Assembly: GCA_014804655.1 (NCBI GenBank)
Contig: JAAUZK010000019.1
Coordinates: 68,033 to 132,032, forward strand
Source of the DNA: Lachnospiraceae bacterium
Lineage (GTDB): Bacteria; Bacillota; Clostridia; Lachnospirales; Lachnospiraceae
Direction of reading: 5' to 3'
Length of the DNA: 64,000 nt
Shown: positions 1-26,761 of the stretch, piece by piece
Position numbering within the stretch: position 1 is the first letter of the stretch
Layout: each line of letters starts with the position of its first letter
Position numbers and translations under genes: made by a program
Notes under the pieces: generated by a model
The model's database searches: none
The model's input: the letters and a program-made list of their open reading frames with translations, nothing else
Told to the model about the DNA's origin: nothing

Positions 1-119
1 AAGCAGGTATTTTTAATATGAAAGTTTACTTCTTTCTCCGATATGCAGCTTTTCTTTTCAATCAGTGATTTGATCACATGAAAATAACAATTATATACTT
101 CTGAAAATATTTCTGTCAT
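1..119 (-). CDS. N-terminus of a second WYL-type regulator (cut by window edge)
   Basis: An open frame starts at the ATG complementary to 117-119 and runs off the left edge, giving 39 residues beginning MTEIFSEVYNCYF. An AAAGGA ribosome binding site sits about 11 bases upstream. It lies 40 bases downstream of the WYL regulator at 160-1404 on the same strand, which suggests a two-gene operon. In clostridia, WYL regulators often occur as unequal tandem pairs, and the start resembles the second member of such pairs from memory. The WYL domain itself is outside the window, so the family assignment is inference from context and the N-terminal sequence. Confidence 0.5.
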   Translation of the reverse strand, partial: MTEIFSEVYNCYFHVIKSLIEKKSCISEKEVNFHIKNTC

Positions 120-159
120 TTGTAACTTTACGTCCTTTTTTCTATAGGAAATTGCTTGT

Positions 160-1404
160 TCATGTCCAATACATGTTGTACATCGTCAAAAAATCTCTCT
201 GAAAACGTTCTTCAAGTTGCGGGCAGTCTGACTTAATAGAAACGATCCGCCCGATAAAGGTACGAATCCACGGCAGCATTTCGTTTGCATCGAATACCTC
301 AATCTCATAGGTAAAGGTGTCAGCAGCGGTTCGCAGGATAACACCGTCTTTTCCTTCACGCTGTAGTCGGTTCAGTATGTATTTTTCAGATTCCTCATTG
401 ATATGGAGCGTCAGTTTAACGTGCTCGGAATGATGGCGGTTGCCATTTTGAAAAGAAACGCCCCAGGCGGATTCTTTATTCCGCTCCAGTTTCTCTTTGA
501 TGACTTCATAGTCGGAATAGGGCTCTTGTATTTTTACCGCCTTTACCGCGTCCATACGAACATTTGCAAAACGCTTCCTATTCGGAAGATAGAGGCATAG
601 ATAACGCCTGCCGGTCCGCGTACTGGTAAAGATTTTCAGCGGAACTCCATCTGTCTTGAGAAAGTTCTCTGATTTCGTACTCTTTATATTCAAAAAGACT
701 GACTTATGCTCATGCATTGCCTGTAGGATGGGAAGAAGCACTTCATCTTCCAGCGTATGTACAAAGAAGTTGTGCTTGATCCGGAACAGGTCGTTTTGGA
801 ATGAGGCGGTGTCCATAATGGTATTCCCGACAATGCCGAGAGGCGAGGAAAGCTGATACAGTTTTATGGTATTTTCCAAACCGGGGTGCGCGGTCAGCAG
901 TTCCTGAAAAGGCGGGGCGAGACGGTACAGTACTTCCTTACCGCATTTCTCTTTCATAAGCATACCTTCCGCGGCATATTGGTTACATTTCCGGCGGACA
1001 ATCTGGGAATCGAACACTTTGTCATATGCTTCAAGGAGACCGTCAGCAATCTCATCTGCTGTCTGCTCCGGGGATTTCAGCAGATAGTCCAAGATATAAA
1101 AGTGCAGCATAATGTCATTATCCGTGAAGCTCTTAGCCTTCCATACCCGATACAGCGGGTTCGTGTCGAGCAGATTGCTGTCGATGGATAAGTAGATATT
1201 TTTCCCTTTTGTTTTTCCCTTTCCGATATAATCCTGCTTGACATAGCCGGACAGCCAGCTTTCCAGTCGGCGGCGCTCGTTATCATAGGTACGACCGCTC
1301 CAGCCGCCGAATTCGTCGCGGGTCTTGAAACCATACACAAAAAAGTCGCGTACATATTCTCTACTTTTGGAAAAAGATTTTATAAGTTCTTTAAATTCTG
1401 ACAT
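160..1404 (-). CDS. WYL-domain transcriptional regulator
   Basis: The 414-residue protein has an N-terminal helix-turn-helix-like region (about 1-160), a WYL domain at about 215-300 (the segment GRRYLCLYLP matches the conserved WYL core) and a C-terminal WCX-like extension at about 330-395. WYL domains bind nucleic acid or nucleotide ligands and often control RNA-repair or defence genes. It is divergent from the Y RNA/TROVE/RtcB genes, so it probably senses damaged RNA or another ligand and controls them; that is inference. A TAGGAG site lies 12 bases before the ATG. Its mRNA leader would contain the two structured repeats at 1447-1629. Confidence 0.85.
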   Translation of the reverse strand: MSEFKELIKSFSKSREYVRDFFVYGFKTRDEFGGWSGRTYDNERRRLESWLSGYVKQDYIGKGKTKGKNIYLSIDSNLLDTNPLYRVWKAKSFTDNDIMLHFYILDYLLKSPEQTADEIADGLLEAYDKVFDSQIVRRKCNQYAAEGMLMKEKCGKEVLYRLAPPFQELLTAHPGLENTIKLYQLSSPLGIVGNTIMDTASFQNDLFRIKHNFFVHTLEDEVLLPILQAMHEHKSVFLNIKSTKSENFLKTDGVPLKIFTSTRTGRRYLCLYLPNRKRFANVRMDAVKAVKIQEPYSDYEVIKEKLERNKESAWGVSFQNGNRHHSEHVKLTLHINEESEKYILNRLQREGKDGVILRTAADTFTYEIEVFDANEMLPWIRTFIGRIVSIKSDCPQLEERFQRDFLTMYNMYWT

Positions 1405-1446
1405 CGAAGTACTTACTCCTAAATCGCATTTTCAGCCAGGCGCTGG

Positions 1447-1533
1447 GGAGAATGCGTACTTTTTGCATTCTCTTAGAGATGATATAGATATACTTAGATC
1501 ATGTATTTTATGATCTTAGTATTTCTCATTTCT
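1447..1533 (-). repeat. Dispersed structured repeat, copy R1
   Basis: Read on the minus strand: outer arm AGAAATGA (1526-1533), core CTAAG-ATCAT ... ATGAT-CTAAG, closing arm TCATCTCT (1475-1482), then the hairpin GAGAATGC/GCATTCTC (1448-1472). The outer arms pair with one G-T wobble. The core stem sequence differs from every other copy but still pairs, as expected of a conserved structure rather than a conserved sequence. It lies between R2 and the WYL gene and would be in that gene's leader. Confidence 0.75.
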
Positions 1534-1541
1534 CAACCTGC

Positions 1542-1629
1542 GGAGAATGCCCGCTTTTGGCATTCTCCTAGACATGATTTAGATGTACTTAGGCGGCGTT
1601 CTTTGACGCCTTAGTATATCTTCATGTCT
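1542..1629 (-). repeat. Dispersed structured repeat, copy R2
   Basis: On the minus strand the outer arms AGACATGA (1622-1629) and TCATGTCT (1570-1577) pair perfectly. The core CTAAGGCG...CGCCTAAG is identical to that of R3 at 26763-26850. The trailing hairpin GGAGAATGCC/GGCATTCTCC spans 1542-1568. A TAAAAT -10-like box lies just upstream on the minus strand, so the element starts about where transcription of the WYL operon would start. It is tandem with R1. Confidence 0.8.
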
Positions 1630-1658
1630 TTTTATTTTACCACACCTTCGCAACTTTT

Positions 1659-1687
1659 TTGAAATGATTATTATGTCTGGATATTGT
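1659..1687 (+). promoter_or_regulatory. Predicted sigma-A promoter of the Y RNA/TROVE/rtcB locus
   Basis: TTGAAA (1659-1664) and TATTGT (1682-1687) are separated by 17 bases and sit about 30 bases upstream of the first tRNA-like RNA. The -10 box is imperfect, which would fit an activated promoter. Control by the divergent WYL protein is inferred from position only. Confidence 0.45.
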
Positions 1688-1715
1688 ATCTTAGATTCAG
1701 ACAGAGGAAAACGAT

Positions 1716-1850
1716 CCGATGGCGAAGCCGCAGTAGCTCAGATGGTAGAGCGCGGAAAAACAAGTCTTGACAAAGACTTTCACAGCAATCGAAATCACCT
1801 GATAAGTGCGTTGTCGTGGGTTCAAATCCCGCCTCGGCGAAAGCCTTCGG
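1716..1850 (+). ncRNA. Y RNA-like (YrlA-type) tRNA mimic, unit 1
   Basis: The 5' and 3' ends pair: CCGATGGC (1716-1723) with GCCTTCGG (1843-1850), one mismatch; a GAA/GAAA internal loop; then GCCG(C)AG (1727-1733) with CTCGGC (1833-1838). Inside are a canonical tRNA D-arm (GCTC...GAGC with AGATGGTA loop, 1736-1751) and a T-arm (GTGGG-TTCAAAT-CCCGC, 1816-1832). In place of an anticodon arm there is a long segment with the hairpin AAGTCTT/AAGACTT (1763-1780). Bacterial Y RNAs of the YrlA class are known tRNA mimics bound by Ro60 (TROVE) proteins, and a TROVE gene follows at 2026. I infer that the AAGTCTT segment, shared with unit 2, is the Ro-binding module. Confidence 0.75.
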
Positions 1851-1871
1851 ATTTTCCAAAGTCTAAGATTA

Positions 1872-1960
1872 GCCTTACCGTGGAAAAATAAGTCTTGTTA
1901 AAGACTTTCACAGCAATACTAAATTGGTCTATGCAGGTTCAAATCCTGCCTCGGTAAGGC
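1872..1960 (+). ncRNA. Y RNA-like tRNA mimic, unit 2 (no D-arm)
   Basis: A perfect 9-bp terminal stem, GCCTTACCG (1872-1880) with CGGTAAGGC (1952-1960), encloses the same GGAAAAA-TAAGTCTTG...AAAGACTTTCACAGCAAT module as unit 1 and a T-arm GCAGG-TTCAAAT-CCTGC (1933-1949). No D-arm is present. It lies 21 bases after unit 1 and 65 bases before the TROVE start codon. It could be a separate RNA or the 3' domain of one longer transcript. Conservation of the shared module between two otherwise different RNAs supports a common protein partner. Confidence 0.7.
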
Positions 1961-2025
1961 TTTATAAAATATTCCGGTATCCGAGTAGTTGTACAGAGGT
2001 TTGAGAATAGCAGGAGGAATTGACT

Positions 2026-3540
2026 ATGAACTTTATGGAAAGATTACATACTATGATAAATGATAATAAGAAGATGACGGAAAACGGAGCATGTGGTTAT
2101 GCGACCACGGGCAGGGCACTGGTGGATCTGAATTTCGCGGTGGCATCTTTAAGAAGCATGACGGAGGCGGAGATCATTAAGAAGTTTATTCCGGCGTTTT
2201 ATGAGGACAGGATGCTCGCGATGAAGTGGCTGTTTTTCCTGCGGGATGTAAGAGGCGGCTTGGGAGAGAGACGAACATTTCGCATTATCATCCGGTATCT
2301 GGCAGGAAACGCGTCGGAGATGATAAACGGGCTGATTGATATCATGGCGGAATACGGACGTTACGACGATTTGTTGTGCCTGTTTGAGACACCGCTTGAA
2401 AATGCGGTATTAGCGGTATTAAAGGAACGGTTGGAGAGGGATATTATAAATATGAAGGAATCCGGGAAGATATCACTCTGCGCTAAGTGGATGCCGGGCA
2501 ACAATACCTCTTCGCAGGAATCGCGGAGAAATGCGGCGAAGTTACAGAATTTCATGGGAATGACGGCTAAGGAGTACAGAAAGATGTTATCTTCCCTGCG
2601 GGCGTATTTGGATGTGACGGAAGTGTATATGAGCGGTAACCGCTGGGAGGAAATTGATTATACAAGAGTTGCGTCCAAGGCAAATATTATTTACCGGAAT
2701 GCATTTATGCTTCATGATCAGGAGCGACGGAAGGACTACCTGAAGGAAGTGCAGGAAAACCATGCGGTAATGCATGCAGGTGTGCTGATGCCGCATGAGA
2801 TCGTGACACAGTATATGGTGCGCACCGGATGGAGAATGCAGACCGGTGCGGAGGATCAGGCACTGGAGGCACTATGGAAGAGTCTTCCGGATATGGCGGC
2901 AGATGCCGGAAATGTGCTCTGTGTGGTGGATGGTTCCGGGAGTATGTTGTGCCCGGTGGGTGACGGAAATACTACGGCACTGCATGTTTCCAATGCGCTC
3001 GGTATTTACTTTGCAGAGCAGATGAGTGGTATCTATCATGATAAGTTTATTACTTTTTCGGCGAATCCGAAGTATGTGGATCTGTCGCAATGCAGAACCC
3101 TTCGGGAGAAGCTGGAGCTGGCATTCTCACACAGTGATTGTTCCAATACGAATATCGAGGCGACTTTTGAACTGATCTTGCAGACAGCGGTGAGAAATCA
3201 CTTAAAGCAGGAGGAACTTCCTGGGACTATCCTTGTGATTTCGGATATGGAATTTGACATGGCGGTAAGCAGATATGGTACAGAGACGCTTTTTGGCACC
3301 ATAGGCAGACGCTTTGCGGCACATGGCTACAAGATGCCGAAGCTGGTATTCTGGAATGTGAACAGCAGAACGAATGTGATTCCGGTTCGTGAGAATGAAC
3401 TTGGTGTGGCGCTGATTAGCGGTTTTTCAGTCAATGTATGTAATATGGTTCTCTCTAATGAGTTAGACCCGTTTGCATGTCTGAAGAAGGTACTTGATAG
3501 TGAGAGATACAGAAAGGTGGAGGAGAGATTATGTTCGTAA
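2026..3540 (+). CDS. rsr: TROVE-domain protein, Ro60/Rsr homologue
   Basis: 504 residues. The start ATG at 2026 is chosen over a TTG six bases earlier because AGGAGG (2012-2017) is spaced 8 bases from it. The N-terminal two-thirds is the helical TROVE ring; the C-terminal third is a von Willebrand A-like fold with an intact MIDAS motif (VVDGSGSM, around residue 300). Ro60 proteins bind misfolded RNAs through the ring cavity and Y RNA on the outside; in bacteria the Y RNA can tether Ro to PNPase. Two Y RNA-like genes lie directly upstream, and the stop codon overlaps rtcB by 10 bases, so translation is coupled. Confidence 0.9.
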   Translation: MNFMERLHTMINDNKKMTENGACGYATTGRALVDLNFAVASLRSMTEAEIIKKFIPAFYEDRMLAMKWLFFLRDVRGGLGERRTFRIIIRYLAGNASEMINGLIDIMAEYGRYDDLLCLFETPLENAVLAVLKERLERDIINMKESGKISLCAKWMPGNNTSSQESRRNAAKLQNFMGMTAKEYRKMLSSLRAYLDVTEVYMSGNRWEEIDYTRVASKANIIYRNAFMLHDQERRKDYLKEVQENHAVMHAGVLMPHEIVTQYMVRTGWRMQTGAEDQALEALWKSLPDMAADAGNVLCVVDGSGSMLCPVGDGNTTALHVSNALGIYFAEQMSGIYHDKFITFSANPKYVDLSQCRTLREKLELAFSHSDCSNTNIEATFELILQTAVRNHLKQEELPGTILVISDMEFDMAVSRYGTETLFGTIGRRFAAHGYKMPKLVFWNVNSRTNVIPVRENELGVALISGFSVNVCNMVLSNELDPFACLKKVLDSERYRKVEERLCS

Positions 3541-4763
3541 TATATAATGATAAAACAAGATTTCCGATCAAGGCGTGGCTGTCGGGAATAGACAGGATAG
3601 AGGAAAGCTGCATAGAGCAGGCTTACAATCTGTCGAATCTTCCTTTTCTACATAAATGGGTGTGCCTTATGCCGGACACCCATACGGGAAAGGGAATGCC
3701 CATCGGCGGTGTTATTGCAACGAAGGATGTGATCATCCCTAATGCGGTGGGCGTGGATATCGGCTGCGGAATGGTGTTTGTGGCAACGGATATCAAATAT
3801 GAGGAGATCAGGGAAGTAATGGTGGGAACGGCATCGATCATGCAGTCGATGATCGGAAATATCATGCGTTCCGTTCCCGTGGGATTTGAGAAACATAAGC
3901 AGAAGCAAGAGTCGGCGGTGCTTGATCTGGCGCTTGAAAATATGGGTAAATATGAGGTGAATCCGGAGCTGGTTCATTTGATTGAGGAGGGCTATTTTCA
4001 AGTGGGAACACTGGGAGGCGGCAATCATTTTATCGAGTTTCAGGAGGATGAGGAAGGGTATCTCTGTATCATGATCCATTCGGGAAGCCGTCATTTGGGG
4101 AAGGAAATCTGCGACTATTTCCACAATAAGGCGCGTGAACTGAACAGCACATGGTACAGTCAGGTGCCGGATGAGTACAGACTCGCTTTTCTTCCGGTAC
4201 ATACCAAGGAAGGGCAGCAGTACATCAACTGGATGCATCTTGCGCTGGACTATGCTTATGAGAACAGGGAACGCATGATGGAGCAGGTGTGCAATGTTGT
4301 AAAGGAGCATATAGAAAAATATGCGGGTCGGACGGTTTCTTTTACCGATCAGATCAACTGTCATCACAACTATGCGGCGTTGGAGAATCACTACGATGCG
4401 AATGTCTGGGTACACCGTAAAGGTGCGACGAGGGTAAGACAGGGAGAGCGCGCAGTCATACCGGGCGCAATGGGCTCTTACAGCTATGTCGTAGAGGGAA
4501 AAGGAAACCCCGAGTCGTTTCATACTTCGTCACACGGGGCAGGCAGGGCTTATTCCAGAACCGGCGCTATGAATGCATTTACGACCGAGCAGGTGATGGT
4601 GGACTTAAAAGAGCAGGGCGTTGTTCTCGGCAAGCGGAAGAAGAATGATGTGGCGGAGGAGTGCAGATTTGCATATAAAGACATCGATGAGGTCATGGCA
4701 CAACAGACGGATATCGTGACTCCGGTCAGAAAGCTTAGGACTGTGGGTGTGGTGAAAGGATAG
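3531..4763 (+). CDS. rtcB: RNA-splicing/repair ligase RtcB
   Basis: 410 residues, the shorter bacterial form. RtcB joins 2',3'-cyclic-phosphate or 3'-phosphate RNA ends to 5'-OH ends through a GMP-histidine intermediate with Mn2+. Visible active-site blocks are PDTHTGKG, VDIGCGM (Cys79, metal), GGGNHFIE, HSGSRHLG and SSHGAGRAYSR, whose His is the guanylylated residue. It is translationally coupled to the TROVE gene (10-base overlap). RtcB next to Ro60 and Y RNA matches the known rsr-yrlA-rtcBA operon of Salmonella, but no rtcA cyclase is present here, as far as the window shows. Confidence 0.95.
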   Translation: MFVIYNDKTRFPIKAWLSGIDRIEESCIEQAYNLSNLPFLHKWVCLMPDTHTGKGMPIGGVIATKDVIIPNAVGVDIGCGMVFVATDIKYEEIREVMVGTASIMQSMIGNIMRSVPVGFEKHKQKQESAVLDLALENMGKYEVNPELVHLIEEGYFQVGTLGGGNHFIEFQEDEEGYLCIMIHSGSRHLGKEICDYFHNKARELNSTWYSQVPDEYRLAFLPVHTKEGQQYINWMHLALDYAYENRERMMEQVCNVVKEHIEKYAGRTVSFTDQINCHHNYAALENHYDANVWVHRKGATRVRQGERAVIPGAMGSYSYVVEGKGNPESFHTSSHGAGRAYSRTGAMNAFTTEQVMVDLKEQGVVLGKRKKNDVAEECRFAYKDIDEVMAQQTDIVTPVRKLRTVGVVKG

Positions 4764-4771
4764 AAAGTATT

Positions 4772-4811
4772 TGCCTCCCCGGTATGATATAATTATCGTA
4801 TCGGGGAGGCA
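4772..4811 (+). terminator. 18-bp hairpin after rtcB
   Basis: TGCCTCCCCGGTATGATA (4772-4789) pairs with 4794-4811 over 18 bp, with two G-T pairs and a four-base loop. There is no T-run after it, so it may be a weak or Rho-assisted terminator, or an mRNA 3'-end stabiliser, rather than a classical intrinsic terminator. Confidence 0.55.
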
Positions 4812-4884
4812 GATTTGCTATTAATGATATATCCCCAAAAAAGAGGTTATTTTTTCATGTTTACCTCGCTAAAATTTAGCAGGA

Positions 4885-4912
4885 TTGATTTATTTTCATT
4901 ATATAGTATAAT
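4885..4912 (+). promoter_or_regulatory. Predicted promoter of the phosphoglycerol-transferase operon
   Basis: TTGATT (4885-4890), a 16-base spacer and TATAAT (4907-4912), in a very AT-rich stretch 71 bases before the next start codon. Confidence 0.55.
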
Positions 4913-4982
4913 ATTTGCATGAGTTTCGACAAAATGGACTGATTTTTCGGCACAAATAAAACATATTTTTGGGAGCAGCGAA

Positions 4983-5333
4983 ATGGAATTTATAGGACTT
5001 TTTTTTCCGGCAATTGTCAGTGTGTTAATTAAAAACAGGAGAAATACGGAAGCCGATTGGCGTATGCCGAGAGTGTTGTTCGGGTATGGGATCTATGTGT
5101 TGATTAATGTTTTTTTGACCGGATGTATTATTACATATGGAATGGGAGTATCCGGCGTAACATCGGACGCTTTGGCCAGCTTCCCGTTTTTTATTAAATA
5201 TACGGTGATTGCGCTTGTAATGGCGGTTATAGTGCCGTATGTGGAGGCAATCATCGGGAAATATATCAAGCTTACATTGACAGTGAGGACTTATGATGAA
5301 AAAAGTGAAGATCATATGGAAGATCATCAGTAG
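4983..5333 (+). CDS. Small integral membrane protein
   Basis: 116 residues with a hydrophobic N-terminus and two further probable membrane spans (about 35-58 and 70-92), ending in a charged tail. A GGGAGC site precedes the ATG. No family is recognised with certainty. It overlaps the following phosphoglycerol-transferase-like gene by 41 bases, so it probably works with that enzyme in the membrane. Confidence 0.7.
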   Translation: MEFIGLFFPAIVSVLIKNRRNTEADWRMPRVLFGYGIYVLINVFLTGCIITYGMGVSGVTSDALASFPFFIKYTVIALVMAVIVPYVEAIIGKYIKLTLTVRTYDEKSEDHMEDHQ

Positions 5334-6861
5334 ATTACTGTTAGTTCTTATATTCTTTTTATTGATTATTTTATTGAAATCAGCAAATTGGTTTTTGGAT
5401 AATTTTAATGAGGTTGACTTTTCAATTGCTCTGTACCAGCTTTTCAGCCCGCTAAAAGGAACAGAATCGGGTGTGCTTGATGATTATATACGTCAATGCC
5501 TGTATCCGTCAGTTTTACTTGCCGTTGCAGGAGTGGCGTTCTATACGCTTTATGACATGATGGCCGGCAGAATCTTTTTGGAAATAGATTTGCGGATCGG
5601 GTTGAGGAATTTGCAGCTTAGAGGGAGAAAGAATAGATTTGCGAATGCAAGAAAGATGGTTGTCTTATGGACGGTTATTGCAGTTCTATGCGTTGGCGTC
5701 TGGAATAGGGCGGCGAAAGTAGGTATACCGGAATATGTACAGAGCGTGACAAATGTATCCAGCATATTTGAATCGAAGTATGTTAGCCCTGACGATGTTG
5801 AGATCATGTTTCCGGAAAAGAAAAGGAACCTAATCGTTATTTATATGGAATCTATGGAAGCCACTTATGCATCGATACAGGAAGGCGGCGGGAAGCCGGT
5901 CAATTACATTCCGGAATTAACTAAGCTGGCAAAAGAAAATGTATCTTTTTCTAATGACGGAGATCTGGGAGGAGCTGGAGCAGCTGCGGAAACCGGATGG
6001 ACAATGGGAGGTTTGTTTTCCAGTGCAACGGGAGTGCCCTATAAATTACCGGTAGACGGAAATGAGGCCGGAGAGTATGACAGCTTTGCACCCGGGCTTA
6101 AAGGCTTGGGAGAAGTGCTTTCGGAAAACGGATATCAGAACTATTTCATGTGTGGGTCAGAGGCGGTTTTCGGCGGTCGCAAAGCCTTTTATGAACAGCA
6201 TGGTGATTTTCATATTTTGGATTACAACGGAGCCAAGAAAGATGGAATCATTCCGGAGGATTATCATGAGTTCTGGGGCATGGAGGATGAGAAGCTCTAT
6301 GAGTATGCGAAACAGCAGTTGGCGGAGATCGCAGGACAGAATAAGCCATTTAATTTTATGATGCTAACGGTTGATACACATCCGGCAGATGGGTATATCT
6401 GTGGTTTATGTGGTGACACCTATGAGAATCAGTATGAGAATGTATTGGCTTGTGCGAGTAGACAGGCAGCTCAGTTTGTCGATTGGGTAAGTGAGCAGGA
6501 GTGGTATGAGAATACAACGATCGTGATTACGGGAGATCACTTGAGTATGAAAGCTGATTTCTGGGATGACATCGACGATTACAACCGTAAGATCTATAAT
6601 TGTTTCATCAATCTTCCGGACGGGCTTATGATCGGACGGACGACGAACAGAGAGTTTTCCATTCTGGATATGTTTCCTACGATTCTGGCGGCGATAGGAG
6701 CTGACATAGAAGGGGACCGGCTGGCATTGGGAACGAATCTTTTCTCGGAAGAAAAAACACTGCCGGAAGAGATGGGGTTCAAGGCGTTTAACAGCGAATT
6801 AAAGTTATATTCTAATTTTTATTATAGGAATTTCGTAGTAGGAAACAAAGTGTCGGCATGA
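5293..6861 (+). CDS. LtaS/MdoB-type phosphoglycerol transferase (alkaline phosphatase superfamily)
   Basis: 522 residues. There are about three membrane spans in the first 145 residues, then an extracytoplasmic sulfatase-like domain (about 175-500). Metal and nucleophile motifs are visible: NLIVIYMESME, ETGWTMGG (the Thr is the probable nucleophile) and VITGDHLSM. Members transfer sn-glycerol-1-phosphate from phosphatidylglycerol to lipoteichoic acid or polysaccharides. Five spans are usual for LtaS, so the small protein encoded upstream may supply the missing ones (inference). The glycerophosphodiesterase-like gene downstream fits a shared glycerol-phosphate polymer pathway. Confidence 0.85.
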   Translation: MMKKVKIIWKIISRLLLVLIFFLLIILLKSANWFLDNFNEVDFSIALYQLFSPLKGTESGVLDDYIRQCLYPSVLLAVAGVAFYTLYDMMAGRIFLEIDLRIGLRNLQLRGRKNRFANARKMVVLWTVIAVLCVGVWNRAAKVGIPEYVQSVTNVSSIFESKYVSPDDVEIMFPEKKRNLIVIYMESMEATYASIQEGGGKPVNYIPELTKLAKENVSFSNDGDLGGAGAAAETGWTMGGLFSSATGVPYKLPVDGNEAGEYDSFAPGLKGLGEVLSENGYQNYFMCGSEAVFGGRKAFYEQHGDFHILDYNGAKKDGIIPEDYHEFWGMEDEKLYEYAKQQLAEIAGQNKPFNFMMLTVDTHPADGYICGLCGDTYENQYENVLACASRQAAQFVDWVSEQEWYENTTIVITGDHLSMKADFWDDIDDYNRKIYNCFINLPDGLMIGRTTNREFSILDMFPTILAAIGADIEGDRLALGTNLFSEEKTLPEEMGFKAFNSELKLYSNFYYRNFVVGNKVSA

Positions 6862-6908
6862 GGATGCTATATGCCGGATGAGATGCAAATAGAGGAATAG
6901 TATAAAAA

Positions 6909-8009
6909 ATGAGCATACGAGCGAAAATCAGTAATGCGGCGTGGGTGGTTTTTCTATGTATTATGATATTTGTGATAATGGGGGCTTTATGGATTCGGGG
7001 AACATATGGAACCTTGACCTTTGCCATGGTGGATGAATCATTCAGAAACGGATTGCAGAATAAGCGTACGTTGTTTGCCGAATATGTCGTATTGCCAACA
7101 ATCGTTATATTTGTTATATTGCTCATTGCCCATATTGTGTGTAAAAAAATTAACAAGCGGAGAGCGGCTTATATTTCTGCATTTTTATTGGGATTATCAG
7201 TTTGTGCCGCAGTAATGATATTGGACGTGGGTTCTTATTTAGGCCGTCAGTACAGATTGGCCGGGCGGCAGTGGTATAATACTGATGATGTCGTAATACA
7301 TGCACTGGGAAGTATTGACGGTGTCACATACACGAACTCAAAGGAAGCATTGGAATACAACTATGAGGCGGGAAAACGCTTGTTTGAATGTGATTTTATC
7401 ATGACGGCTGATAAGCAGATGGTAGCATGTCATGACTGGGAATTCTGGAACAGAGAGACGAACCAGGATGATTCCTTGGATGAGGACTATATTCCTACAT
7501 TGGATGATTTTATGAATCATAAGGTGATGGGAAAATACACTCCGTTGTCCGCAGATGATATTATGAGGTTTCTTAAAGAGCACCCGGATATGTATATTAT
7601 CACAGATACGAAATATTCGCAACCGGAGGTGATTAAAGAAGAATTTTATGCTTTGGTTGATGCGGCGGCAAGAAACGACTGTGAGGAGATGCTGGATCGT
7701 TTTGTTGTTCAGATCTATCATATGTATATGCATGATATTGTGGATGAGATTTATCCGTTTCCAAGTTATATTTTTACGTTATATTCAGAGGGATACAGAG
7801 GCGAGGAGGATAGAATGCAGCAGTATGCAGAGTTCTGCATGCTTCATGATATCGATGTAATCACTATGAACGCGAAATATTATCAGGACGGATTATCGGA
7901 TATATGTGAAAGGTATGGGATACATATGTTTGTGCATACAGTAAATGATGATGATGAGATTGAGGCGTATCGAGAGAAAGGAATCGGGGTATATACCGAT
8001 AATACCTGA
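6909..8009 (+). CDS. Membrane-anchored glycerophosphodiester phosphodiesterase-family protein
   Basis: 366 residues. Three membrane spans lie in the first about 115 residues, followed by a PLC-like TIM-barrel phosphodiesterase domain. The signature HALGSIDG replaces the usual HRG; FECDFIMTADKQMVACHDW supplies the E-x-D and HD catalytic pairs. It would hydrolyse glycerophosphodiesters outside the membrane. It follows the phosphoglycerol transferase by 47 bases in the same direction, so trimming or recycling of glycerol-phosphate decorations is a reasonable job (inference). Confidence 0.8.
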   Translation: MSIRAKISNAAWVVFLCIMIFVIMGALWIRGTYGTLTFAMVDESFRNGLQNKRTLFAEYVVLPTIVIFVILLIAHIVCKKINKRRAAYISAFLLGLSVCAAVMILDVGSYLGRQYRLAGRQWYNTDDVVIHALGSIDGVTYTNSKEALEYNYEAGKRLFECDFIMTADKQMVACHDWEFWNRETNQDDSLDEDYIPTLDDFMNHKVMGKYTPLSADDIMRFLKEHPDMYIITDTKYSQPEVIKEEFYALVDAAARNDCEEMLDRFVVQIYHMYMHDIVDEIYPFPSYIFTLYSEGYRGEEDRMQQYAEFCMLHDIDVITMNAKYYQDGLSDICERYGIHMFVHTVNDDDEIEAYREKGIGVYTDNT

Positions 8010-8039
8010 ATTTTTTTTTAGTAAAAAGGACAGAAAACA

Positions 8040-8360
8040 ATGAAAAATATCAACAAATCGGAAGTATTAATTCTAAAGAATCAGGTTTCTTATCAGGAAG
8101 GACAAGTTGTCAGCAAGACGCTGGCACAGAATGATGCAGTCAGCGTGACGCTGTTTGCATTCGACAAAGGGGAAGAGATCAGTACCCACGAATCCGGCGG
8201 AGATGCTTTCGTCATCTGTCTGGACGGTGTGGGTGAGATTACGATCGATGGCGTAAACTATGAGCTTCACGAAGGGGAATCTATTGTGATGCCCGCAAAG
8301 CATCCCCATGCCGTACGCGGCAAGGAGCAGTTTAAGATGCTGTTGGTAGTGGTATTTTAA
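8040..8360 (+). CDS. Single-domain cupin protein
   Basis: 106 residues forming one cupin barrel, with motif 1 around GEEISTHESGGDAFVICLDG and motif 2 around MPAKHPHAV. Histidines that would bind a metal are present in both motifs. Small cupins of this type are of mixed or unknown function. It ends 13 bases before the convergent DUF89 gene. It may be the last gene of the preceding operon (30-base gap). Confidence 0.85.
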   Translation: MKNINKSEVLILKNQVSYQEGQVVSKTLAQNDAVSVTLFAFDKGEEISTHESGGDAFVICLDGVGEITIDGVNYELHEGESIVMPAKHPHAVRGKEQFKMLLVVVF

Positions 8361-8373
8361 TATGGGATACAAT

Positions 8374-9261
8374 TTAAGAGAAGACAGGGTGAGTTTGACA
8401 TCTATTTTTCATGCAGATCATTTTCTTTTCGGGGACTCCGATATCGTCTGCAATCACTCTGCATTTCGTCATGAGAAGAAAGAATATGTTCTTTTTTTCT
8501 TCACTTAAACATTCATAATTTGCCTGTCCCTTTGCAATGACAATGTCCGCATTATGATAAACTTCTTGAAATTCCCTTGAAGTTCTGGGTAAAACAGTGC
8601 CCAATGAATAATCGCCGTTGCTGATTATCGTTGTATAGGCATCCATGTCTACCGTATAAGCATCTGCTTCCACCGAGTCATTCACAACGGCGGCCCCTCT
8701 TGTAGCAAAGAAAACATGGCATAACGGATTTATTTCCTTGATTTTTTTAATCAGTATTTTGTCAAGACAGATTTCACCACAATTATCTCCCAGATAGAGT
8801 AGTGTATTTGCTTTGTAAATCTCTTGGAACAAAAGAGCAGAATCATCCAATTCCAACGGTTCTTCCTTTAATTTTGCAAAGCAGGATTCTATATCTGAGA
8901 GGGACAAGTCATGAATGGGATTAAAATCAATAATATTTCCTATAATCGCATATTTGATACTTTCCAAGAAGGGATTATCCGATGCATTGATCTCTTGCTC
9001 AAATTGAGGAATCCGTTCTAAAAACATCTTATTGTAACGAGTTCTTGTTTCCTGATAAGGATCATCATTACCGGTTTCGGTTTTTAATAACGAGAAAATT
9101 TCTCCGATTAATTCCGGAGTAGAGGTACTCTTATAATCGACCTTACTTAAATAAGTAAATACATTTCTCAGCAAGTTGTCTTTCTCTTTTAATCCAACTA
9201 TATCTGCAACCTTAATTGCCTGATTAACGGTACAAGGTATACATTTATCATGTATTCTCAT
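8374..9261 (-). CDS. DUF89/ARMT1-like damage-control phosphatase
   Basis: 295 residues from the ATG at 9261, chosen because GGAGG lies 12 bases upstream and the family starts with an N-terminal Cys pair (CIPCTVNQ). The metal-site motif LYLGDNCGE and the KGQANYE motif typical of DUF89 proteins are present. DUF89 enzymes are metal-dependent phosphatases that remove damaged or excess sugar phosphates; the substrate here cannot be told. It is the last of four minus-strand genes (GNAT, GyrI-like, Nudix, DUF89). Confidence 0.85.
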   Translation of the reverse strand: MRIHDKCIPCTVNQAIKVADIVGLKEKDNLLRNVFTYLSKVDYKSTSTPELIGEIFSLLKTETGNDDPYQETRTRYNKMFLERIPQFEQEINASDNPFLESIKYAIIGNIIDFNPIHDLSLSDIESCFAKLKEEPLELDDSALLFQEIYKANTLLYLGDNCGEICLDKILIKKIKEINPLCHVFFATRGAAVVNDSVEADAYTVDMDAYTTIISNGDYSLGTVLPRTSREFQEVYHNADIVIAKGQANYECLSEEKKNIFFLLMTKCRVIADDIGVPEKKMICMKNRCQTHPVFS

Positions 9262-24860: not shown

Positions 24861-25646
24861 GTGCAAATAATCAATAAGAATATAGATAGCGGAAAACCTT
24901 TTGATTGGGGGAAAACATCGTCAGATTATGCAAAGTTTCGCGACGTCTACCCACAGAAATTTTATCAAAAAATTATTGAACGTAATTTATGCTTGACCGG
25001 ACAATCAGCTCTTGATATCGGAACCGGGACGGGTGTCCTTCCAAGAAATATGTATAAGTATGGGGCAAGGTGGACTGCTACGGATATTTCGGAAAATCAA
25101 ATTGAACAAGCCAAAATTCTTTCAGAGGGTATGGATATAGATTATCATACGGTAGCAACAGAGGATATAAATTTTCCTGATAATTCTTTCGATGTAATTA
25201 CAGCTTGTCAATGTTTTTTCTATTTCGATCACAAAAGAATTATGCCGAATCTTTATCATATGCTTAAAGCCGGAGGAAGTATACTCATTTTGTATATGGC
25301 GTGGCTGCCTTTTGAAGATAAGATTGCAGGTGCCAGTGAAAATCTTGTATTGAAATACAATCCAAAATGGAGCGGAGCGGGAGAAACAGTCCATCAGATA
25401 GATATACCTGATTGTTATAAAGAAAATTTTGAACTTGTGTATCGCGAAGAATATCCCATAACAGTACCATTTACCCGTGAAAGCTGGAATGGAAGAATGA
25501 AAGCCTGTCGGGGAATCGGCGCTTCGCTTACGGATAGCGAAATTATAATGTGGGAGCAGGAACACATGGAACTTTTGAAGTCCATTGCCCCTGATGAATT
25601 TGATATTTTACATTATGGAGCTATCGCGGAACTTAAAAAAATTTAA
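24861..25646 (+). CDS. Class I SAM-dependent methyltransferase
   Basis: 261 residues from a GTG at 24861 (GGGAGG upstream). Motif I is ALDIGTGTGVLPR, followed by the acidic loop ATDIS and motif IV DNSFDVITACQCFFYF, matching small-molecule Methyltransf_11-type enzymes. The substrate is unknown. Codon usage and AT content resemble the neighbouring accessory genes. Confidence 0.9.
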   Translation: MQIINKNIDSGKPFDWGKTSSDYAKFRDVYPQKFYQKIIERNLCLTGQSALDIGTGTGVLPRNMYKYGARWTATDISENQIEQAKILSEGMDIDYHTVATEDINFPDNSFDVITACQCFFYFDHKRIMPNLYHMLKAGGSILILYMAWLPFEDKIAGASENLVLKYNPKWSGAGETVHQIDIPDCYKENFELVYREEYPITVPFTRESWNGRMKACRGIGASLTDSEIIMWEQEHMELLKSIAPDEFDILHYGAIAELKKI

Positions 25647-25697: not shown

Positions 25698-26681
25698 ATG
25701 TTTATTATGATAACTACCGGCTCAAAAATAGGAATCGTTTGTTGTTCAAACGGACAGAAAAAGGAATATTCCGAAAAAATCAGACGTATGGAAGAAATCT
25801 TAAGATCAATTGGGCTTCAGCCTGTATTCAGTGATTATATCTATGCAAAAGAAGATGTTTTCAGTGGTACGGGTAAGGAACGAGCACTGGCGCTCATGGA
25901 GTTCTATCGGGACGATGAGATAAAGGCAATATTTGATATTTCGGGCGGTGATATTGCAAATGGCATTCTTCCCTATCTGGATTACGACGTGATAGCAGAA
26001 AGCGGTAAAACATTTTGGGGATATAGTGATTTAACGACAGTAATCAATGCAATCTATGCAAAGACCGGTAAGGCATCGGTACTGTATCAGATACGGAATG
26101 TACTTTACGATCATGGAGCACAGCAGATCGAGGATTTCAGGAATACTGTCATAAACCGCGCGGATGATTTGTTCCGAATAGATTACAGGTTTATTTCTTC
26201 GGATTCTGTGAATTGGTGTGAAGACACAGATTTGGGTACGGTGAACGGAGAGTATAAAGAACCGGTTGAGAAGCAGGTGAATGGAAAGTGTAAAGAGGTA
26301 CAGCGGCATGTGGCGGATGAGAAATCTAAAGCGTTGCAGGGAATCGTTGTAGGCGGTAATATCAGATGTTTCCTGAAACTGGCAGGAACGGAGTATATGC
26401 CGGATCTTACCGATAAAATACTGCTTTTGGAAGGCTACACTGGGACAGCCGCGAAAATGGAGACGTATTTATGCCAGTTGGAACAGCTCGGGGCTTTTCG
26501 GAAAGTGGCGGGCATTTTGTTGGGAACTTTTACCGAAATGCAGGAGAAAAATGCGGTGCCGTCCATAGAGACGCTCATCAAGAAGTTCGCCGGAAATGAT
26601 TTCCCGATTGCGGTAACGAATCAGATTGGGCATGGGACGGATGCGAAAGGGATCTGGATCGGGCGAGAGCTTGGTCAGTGA
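25698..26681 (+). CDS. S66-family peptidase (LD-carboxypeptidase / MccF-like)
   Basis: About 327 residues from the ATG at 25698 (GATGAGG before it; a second ATG at 25707 is also possible). The fold's conserved parts are visible: SGGDIANGILPYLDYD, the serine nucleophile in WGYSDLTT, the glutamate in LLLEGYTG and the histidine in IGHGTDAKG. S66 enzymes cut LD-peptide bonds of recycled murein or, as MccF, inactivate microcin C. There is a less conserved insert at about 170-215. Confidence 0.9.
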   Translation: MFIMITTGSKIGIVCCSNGQKKEYSEKIRRMEEILRSIGLQPVFSDYIYAKEDVFSGTGKERALALMEFYRDDEIKAIFDISGGDIANGILPYLDYDVIAESGKTFWGYSDLTTVINAIYAKTGKASVLYQIRNVLYDHGAQQIEDFRNTVINRADDLFRIDYRFISSDSVNWCEDTDLGTVNGEYKEPVEKQVNGKCKEVQRHVADEKSKALQGIVVGGNIRCFLKLAGTEYMPDLTDKILLLEGYTGTAAKMETYLCQLEQLGAFRKVAGILLGTFTEMQEKNAVPSIETLIKKFAGNDFPIAVTNQIGHGTDAKGIWIGRELGQ

Positions 26682-26733
26682 GGAGTGTAATATATCAGGA
26701 GTAAAGGAAGAATGATTAATTTATACGATTATA

Positions 26734-26761
26734 TTTACAGAGGAAAATAGTTTGTTATAAT
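26734..26761 (+). promoter_or_regulatory. Predicted promoter of the MFS gene
   Basis: TTTACA (26734-26739), a 16-base spacer and TATAAT (26756-26761). The structured repeat R3 starts two bases after the -10 box, so the transcript would begin within its first arm. Confidence 0.6.

Follow-up and report, generated by a model that had tools for sequence, protein, structure and literature searches.

Two tRNA-mimicking RNAs with a helix-ACAGC module upstream of genes for a predicted Ro60-fold protein and RtcB in a Lachnospiraceae bacterium

The window analysed here, a whole stretch of 64,000 nucleotides from a Lachnospiraceae bacterium (assembly GCA_014804655.1, contig JAAUZK010000019.1, positions 68,033 to 132,032 of the forward strand), contains two tandem RNAs upstream of a gene for a 504-residue protein and an rtcB gene, with a regulator gene on the opposite strand. 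The RNAs are conserved structured tRNA mimics, both carrying a helix followed by two bases and ACAGC, and this helix-NN-ACAGC module tracks the protein, which is predicted to adopt a Ro60-type fold, across other bacteria, phages and plasmids. The locus probably encodes a Ro60-like ribonucleoprotein together with RtcB in an RNA-repair regulon, with a WYL protein as its likely regulator. The system resembles Ro60 and its Y RNAs, but it falls outside YrlA, by model and by strand order, and outside the Pfam TROVE family. The features at its core are:

1716..1847, + strand: RNA1, a tRNA-order mimic (core about 1727-1841) with an extended bulged acceptor stem, D arm, module hairpin, anticodon-like arm and T arm
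1736..1751, + strand: D arm of RNA1, GCTC...GAGC, with a stem that does not vary among 21 aligned RNAs
1762..1786, + strand: module of RNA1, AAGTCTT-GACA-AAGACTT-TC-ACAGC
1796..1808, + strand: anticodon-like arm of RNA1, CAC-CTGATAA-GTG, with a 7-base loop of the form CTNNNAA
1816..1832, + strand: T arm of RNA1
1866..1965, + strand: RNA2, without a D arm; terminal stem of 8-9 bp (1872-1880/1952-1960), module and T arm
1890..1914, + strand: module of RNA2, AAGTCTT-GTTA-AAGACTT-TC-ACAGC
1933..1949, + strand: T arm of RNA2
2026..3540, + strand: predicted Ro60-fold protein, 504 aa, DUF2828 (PF11443) and DUF7788 (PF25043), the vWA-like part with DxSxS
3531..4763, + strand: RtcB RNA ligase, PF01139

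An earlier note on this DNA had described two RNAs with terminal stems and T arms, one of them also with a D arm, and a module common to both; alignments of homologues confirm this description and support the tRNA mimicry (D and T arms in RNA1, T arm in RNA2) and the division into two RNA types, one of them lacking the D arm. For RNA1, with 21 homologues, 480 pair cells (23 pairs) were scored and 97.5% are paired; both sides have changed in 9 of the 23 pairs, against a mean of 4.9 after shuffling, and pairing is down to 29-55% when the partner strand is slid. The corresponding figures for RNA2, from 15 homologues, are 96.5%, 5 of 21 pairs and 34-65%. Such counts of pair cells and changes overstate independent events, because the sequences in the two alignments (A3 and A4) are related. 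Also against a signal beyond chance, further pair types are no more numerous than in shuffles for either RNA. When strands from the same locus were compared with strands from mixed loci, the acceptor strands of RNA1 gave -13.4 versus -7.4 kcal/mol and the terminal stem of RNA2 -19.4 versus -15.0, with 0 of 10,000 permutations as low in either case. Folded as a single sequence, RNA1 does not stand out (z -1.3), and RNA2 does better (z -3.4). The weakest helix of RNA1 is its anticodon-like arm (85% paired), and the RNA2 alignment shows no such arm. In Rfam scans of window positions 1-9000, RNA1 was recognized as a weak tRNA (30.5 bits; gathering threshold, 29), RNA2 had no match up to E 1, and the YrlA model (RF02553), one of the Y RNA models that the note had proposed to run, had none up to E 1 either. 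ARAGORN called no tRNA in the window, nor any upstream of the gene with introns allowed, and RNA1, despite its 30.5 bits, does not amount to a complete functional tRNA.

The module was followed in a sample of 67 loci, made up of the window, loci from four homologue sets (15 of 22, 28 of 30, 2 of 9 and 6 of 8), 12 of 682 phage records and 3 of 4 plasmids, and omitting near copies, short pieces and the source genome's own copies. Under a strict rule, which requires an ACAGC outside the gene, a 7-mer exactly two bases before it and a complementary partner nearby, 110 of 215 ACAGC passed, compared with 10.3% at other positions and with 13 of 131 ACAGC inside the gene. The pass rate peaks at a gap of two bases (51%), falling to 31% at gap 1, 15% at gaps 0 and 3, and 7-9% at gaps of at least 5, and ACAGC ranks first among the 1024 pentamers. 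In loci less than 60% identical, 60 of 109 sense but 1 of 53 antisense occurrences pass, 28 of 37 loci being positive. At least one element was found in all 12 loci of the window clade, in 29 of 34 other bacterial loci, 3 of 6 from IMG/VR, 7 of 12 phages and 2 of 3 plasmids. Examples recognized by eye come, among others, from phages of the Listeria, Enterococcus, Felix O1-like, mycobacterial and Campylobacter groups and from a Bacillus plasmid. The strict rule replaced a loose one (three gaps, up to 2 GU pairs), which was dropped because its background reached 42%. No Rfam model covered the element in the scans made. A covariance model of RNA1 (R1), with 11 candidates per genome scored in 299 genomes of the family, yielded at least 11 matches above 60 bits (the next at 59.5), 10 of them upstream of DUF2828 genes; excluding the genomes with training sequences (G000 and G568), 8 of 9 lie upstream of such genes (P 4e-8). 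The threshold was set at 60 bits because 91-base matches, taken for ordinary tRNAs and not used, reach 59.5.

This RNA design occurs in two strand orders. The window clade has the hairpin form, with the partner strand immediately upstream and a four-base loop closing the helix. Among the hairpin forms that pass the strict rule, this loop reads GNNA in 21 of 24; the T arm follows the module in all 24, including the two RNAs of the window, and a D arm precedes it in 18, which is the order of a tRNA. Most other loci have the terminal form, with the partner strand downstream and the two ends of the unit made up by the module, as in the 16 phage elements counted across 12 loci. Here the T arm precedes the D arm in the five units where both were found (the L019 unit being doubtful), and the Rfam YrlA model has this same order. 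Where a terminal unit has just one partner, G follows the helix in 46 of 48 cases and A precedes it in 30 of 48; the GNNA loop begins and ends with these same bases. Most terminal units start with A-AAG... and finish with ...CUU-G, and joining these ends via two bases, as a G-NN-A loop, gives the hairpin form. In a tree of 66 proteins (L043 excluded for its N runs; form labels of L066 and L067 set by hand, as were those of L008 and L010, which remained unchanged), hairpin loci form two distinct branches, one of 16 rows (support 96/92) and one of 5 rows (support 100/100), and terminal-only branches lie between the two, a pattern that fits either two gains or one gain followed by losses. Both forms are found together in five loci by the strict rule (L042, L043, L045, L062 and L063), and we infer that tandem arrays read in shifted register would interconvert them. 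A more daring and improbable idea is that both orders are linear versions of a single circle. In that case RtcB, a ligase suited to such joins, may circularise the RNAs, Ro60-like ribonucleoproteins would hold circular tRNA mimics, and the genes would be free to move from one permutation to the other, the circle being the functional form.

The protein, which like the regulator was run against Pfam and NCBIfam, had been labelled TROVE in the earlier note. That label does not hold in the Pfam sense, since TROVE (PF05731) is absent among its Pfam matches up to E 10 and has no match in the source genome or in the 299 family genomes, with Deinobacterium chartae as a positive control. The likeness behind the label persists in the predicted structure, which according to Foldseek and VIA matches Ro60 across residues 12-481 as a ring-plus-vWA fold. 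Residues D302, S304 and S306 form the DxSxS metal-site motif of vWA domains and are invariant in alignments A1 (11 sequences) and A2 (53 sequences). A sequence search of the PDB gave weak matches only, with TROVE entries at E 0.18, and a structure predicted from one sequence alone was discarded (predicted local distance difference test score, 41). DUF2828 matches occur in 682 of 50,697 phage records, some of them annotated as Ro-like; among the papers searched, four mention DUF2828 and, judging by their titles, concern plants. The protein, a candidate partner of the RNAs, is linked with them by genomic association.

Among the closest known systems is the Salmonella rsr-yrlBA-rtcBA operon, which combines YrlA with Rsr/Ro60 and RtcBA (PMC7790460). 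YrlA shares with the window its tRNA-like D and T arms (both in RNA1, the T arm only in RNA2), a Ro60-fold partner and RtcB in the operon. It superposes on tRNA with a circular permutation (PMC11472068), running from basal stem through T arm and loop-closed acceptor to D arm, whereas the window RNAs keep the tRNA order and add the ACAGC hairpin; the consensus basal stem of YrlA lacks ACAGC, and the YrlA system has RtcR (a CARF-type sigma-54 activator) where the window has a WYL-associated operator-like site. In the sense of YrlA, the term bacterial Y RNA does not fit the window RNAs on two points, the missing RF02553 match and the opposite permutation. Relatives with permuted units match YrlA below its gathering threshold of 69 (47.8, 34.4 and 28.4 bits in L081; 38.2 in L038), and adjacent pairs of ordinary tRNAs also score 37.7-40.8 bits. 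YrlA matches in 106 of 149 genomes were rejected, as all of them stayed below gathering and the three that were inspected each cover a pair of adjacent tRNAs. The Rsr of Deinococcus radiodurans, which acts with Y RNA and PNPase (RYPER) and which we take to be TROVE-type, is 13% identical to the window protein. Circularly permuted tRNA genes serve to make functional tRNAs, which nothing here implies for the window RNAs. What such genes (PMC3978253) have in common with this system is one tRNA-like shape coded in two strand orders.

Phage Ro-like proteins with DUF2828 belong to the same family as the window protein. That of Listeria phage CKA15 was proposed as a partner of Y RNAs, in an account whose relevant passages name no shared RNA element (PMC12282133). 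The most-transcribed region of CKA15 was considered as a helix-ACAGC element and rejected in view of a full-length ROOL match below gathering. By similarity, the three elements of phage LP-124 map instead to a gap at CKA15 record positions 25216-25610. Full-length matches to ROOL (RF03087; gathering, 99.1 bits) lie at L091 2696-3247 (Listeria phage cka15, record 26195-26746; 90.1 bits) and at L070 1923-2474 (87.4 bits). The matched non-coding region of CKA15 is the site of two main open reading frames (ORFs) that were found to account for 7-34% of all transcripts and that the authors could not identify (PMC12282133). A further ROOL RNA (192 bits) lies at L019 8089-8608, about 1.6 kb 3' of an Erysipelotrichaceae DUF2828 gene.

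The ligase gene reported earlier was confirmed (PF01139, 382.3 bits; cut-off, 27), as was its 10-base overlap with the protein gene (3531-3540), and the proposed RNA-repair setting is supported. Across loci RtcB is of two kinds, 84-100% or 26-29% identical to that of the window, and it lies on either side of the gene, in two cases 1.4-2.5 kb away. The regulatory features of the window are the following:

160..1404, - strand: putative WYL-type regulator, divergent from the RNA operon
from 119 (1..119 in the window, most of it outside), - strand: second regulator-like ORF, 337 aa, WYL not confirmed
1648..1668, + strand: operator-like site TCGCAACTTTTTTNNNNTGAT, 17 fixed bases, inside a conserved promoter region
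1659-1687, + strand: -35/-10-like TTGAAA...TATTGT, conserved promoter region

The claim that WYL regulators stand on the opposite strand survives in part. The gene at 160-1404 is putatively WYL-type by three named homologues (all WYL; the other 117 of the 120 listed are nameless), but it has no Pfam match up to E 10, and the assignment of the second ORF was not confirmed. Of the 67 loci, 24 have a sequence within one mismatch of TCGCAACTTTTTT in the 1 kb upstream of the gene, and in 21 of these it precedes the first element; another 835 kb contained 4 matches. The exact, longer TCGCAACTTTTTTNNNNTGAT has 27 occurrences, spread over 25 of the 299 genomes, with one in the source genome (window 1648), its reversed control being absent among the matches listed. 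Eight occurrences are at DUF2828 loci and 19 elsewhere. At 14 of these 19 the next ORF is rtcB (11 closest to the RtcB of the window, the other 3 closest to a different kind), at 3 it is Band_7, at 1 it has no annotation, and at 1, beside a contig end, there is none. Pfam was run on ten of the ORFs following such sites. Because it precedes rtcB genes elsewhere, usually near a WYL-type gene, the site marks an RNA-repair regulon, most simply under this WYL class, whose protein would bind it; control by WYL, as proposed earlier, is thus probably right. The treatment of WYL and RtcR by Makarova et al. 2014 states no link between WYL and rtcB where it covers them (PMC4012209). The Band_7/SPFH genes directly 3' of the same site (L111, L112 and L116) suggest a third member of the regulon. 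In G589 a second copy of the site is followed by a 712-aa ORF with no Pfam match (L109 1078-3213, - strand).

In the pathway that we favour, an RNA-damage signal acting via the WYL protein would alter transcription from the site at 1648. The RNAs would then be excised, perhaps by tRNA-processing enzymes, as suggested by their ends, which form an acceptor-like stem. The Ro60-like ring would bind the helix-ACAGC module, and the tRNA-like half could dock a tRNA-handling protein, either a nuclease such as PNPase, whose docking by YrlA has been reported (PMC8394870), or RtcB itself. As a result, within a damage response that would also supply RtcB, damaged RNAs would be sorted between decay and ligation.

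Several observations weigh against a Ro60-like ribonucleoprotein with RtcB in such a regulon. At the background rate some 22 of the 110 strict positives, about one ACAGC in ten, are expected by chance, and 14 of the 67 loci have no element by that rule (L082, L084, L086, L089 and L090 among those without one; in L071 nothing is seen upstream by eye, and the loose rule lists downstream partners). RtcB was seen at 13 of the 67 loci, the flanks of many spanning only about 1.5 kb, and none lies in the 3.9-5.0 kb of downstream sequence covered in six loci of the window clade (L005 and L008-L012); it is a repeated, not an obligatory, partner, and its place beside the gene is no general feature. A WYL-type gene accompanies 13 of 18 operator regions examined, hence not all. 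One genome (G429) has an RNA above 60 bits, although no DUF2828 gene was found in it at E up to 1. Finally, separate release of the RNAs is unproven, because no terminator-like site was found in 1400-2100.

This last point, together with the position of the elements between operator-like site and gene, would suit a cis-acting mRNA leader, in which the elements would not be free RNAs but sites for regulation of the operon by its own Ro60-like protein or by damaged RNA. Such a leader is unlikely: phages L072 and L073 carry their elements downstream of the gene, L018 has six modules (2414, 4413, 4684, 4818, 6763 and 6901) flanking it on both sides, L061 has seven upstream ACAGC with a partner by the loose rule, and the RNA of G429 occurs without the gene. 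The D, T and acceptor parts of RNA1 with its anticodon-like arm, and the presence of RtcB in operon and regulon, also recall a decoy that would absorb or report tRNA-cutting nucleases, with RtcB sealing the cuts, and Hughes et al. 2020 raise the idea that YrlA acts as a competitive inhibitor (PMC7790460). We hold this to be improbable, since RNA2 keeps the module but neither the D arm nor the anticodon-like arm, which points to protein binding first. There is very little to commend RNA1 as a precursor tRNA with an intron-like insertion in its anticodon stem, spliced with RtcB. Without A3 columns 41-88, a CTNNNAA loop would sit on an anticodon stem of 5 bp, and ARAGORN with introns calls split tRNAs in relatives such as L008, L042, L045, L046 and L063; the same program makes no call on the window RNAs, the supposed intron contains the conserved module, RNA2 has no anticodon arm, and the anticodon-like pairs are those with the lowest pairing.

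Some further observations concern the surroundings of these RNAs. Upstream of the promoter region, window positions 1447-1540 and 1545-1635 carry a hairpin-rich element twice in tandem (fold z -7.8 for 1447-1542 and -6.2 for 1550-1634), the second copy being a dispersed repeat with 32 matching places in its own genome, itself included. The orphan tRNA-order RNA of G429 (L103, about 6093-6205) has both module and operator-like site, with isochorismatase and NAPRTase genes after it, and in L062 a tRNA-order mimic upstream of the DUF2828 gene is lined up with ordinary tRNA genes.

In humans Ro60 is an autoantigen, and a link has been drawn between lupus and commensal bacteria that carry orthologues of it (PMC8394870). 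Named relatives of the source bacterium include gut bacteria, and a Ro60-like family in the Lachnospiraceae, overlooked by TROVE-based searches, widens the field of Ro60 commensals. The helix-ACAGC element gives a handle for locating Y-RNA-like RNAs in bacteria and phages, and one RNA design naturally permuted around one protein family indicates that the proposed binding module is separable from topology. The operator-like site, in turn, links a class of WYL regulators to rtcB, whereby the signal sensed by the regulon becomes testable.

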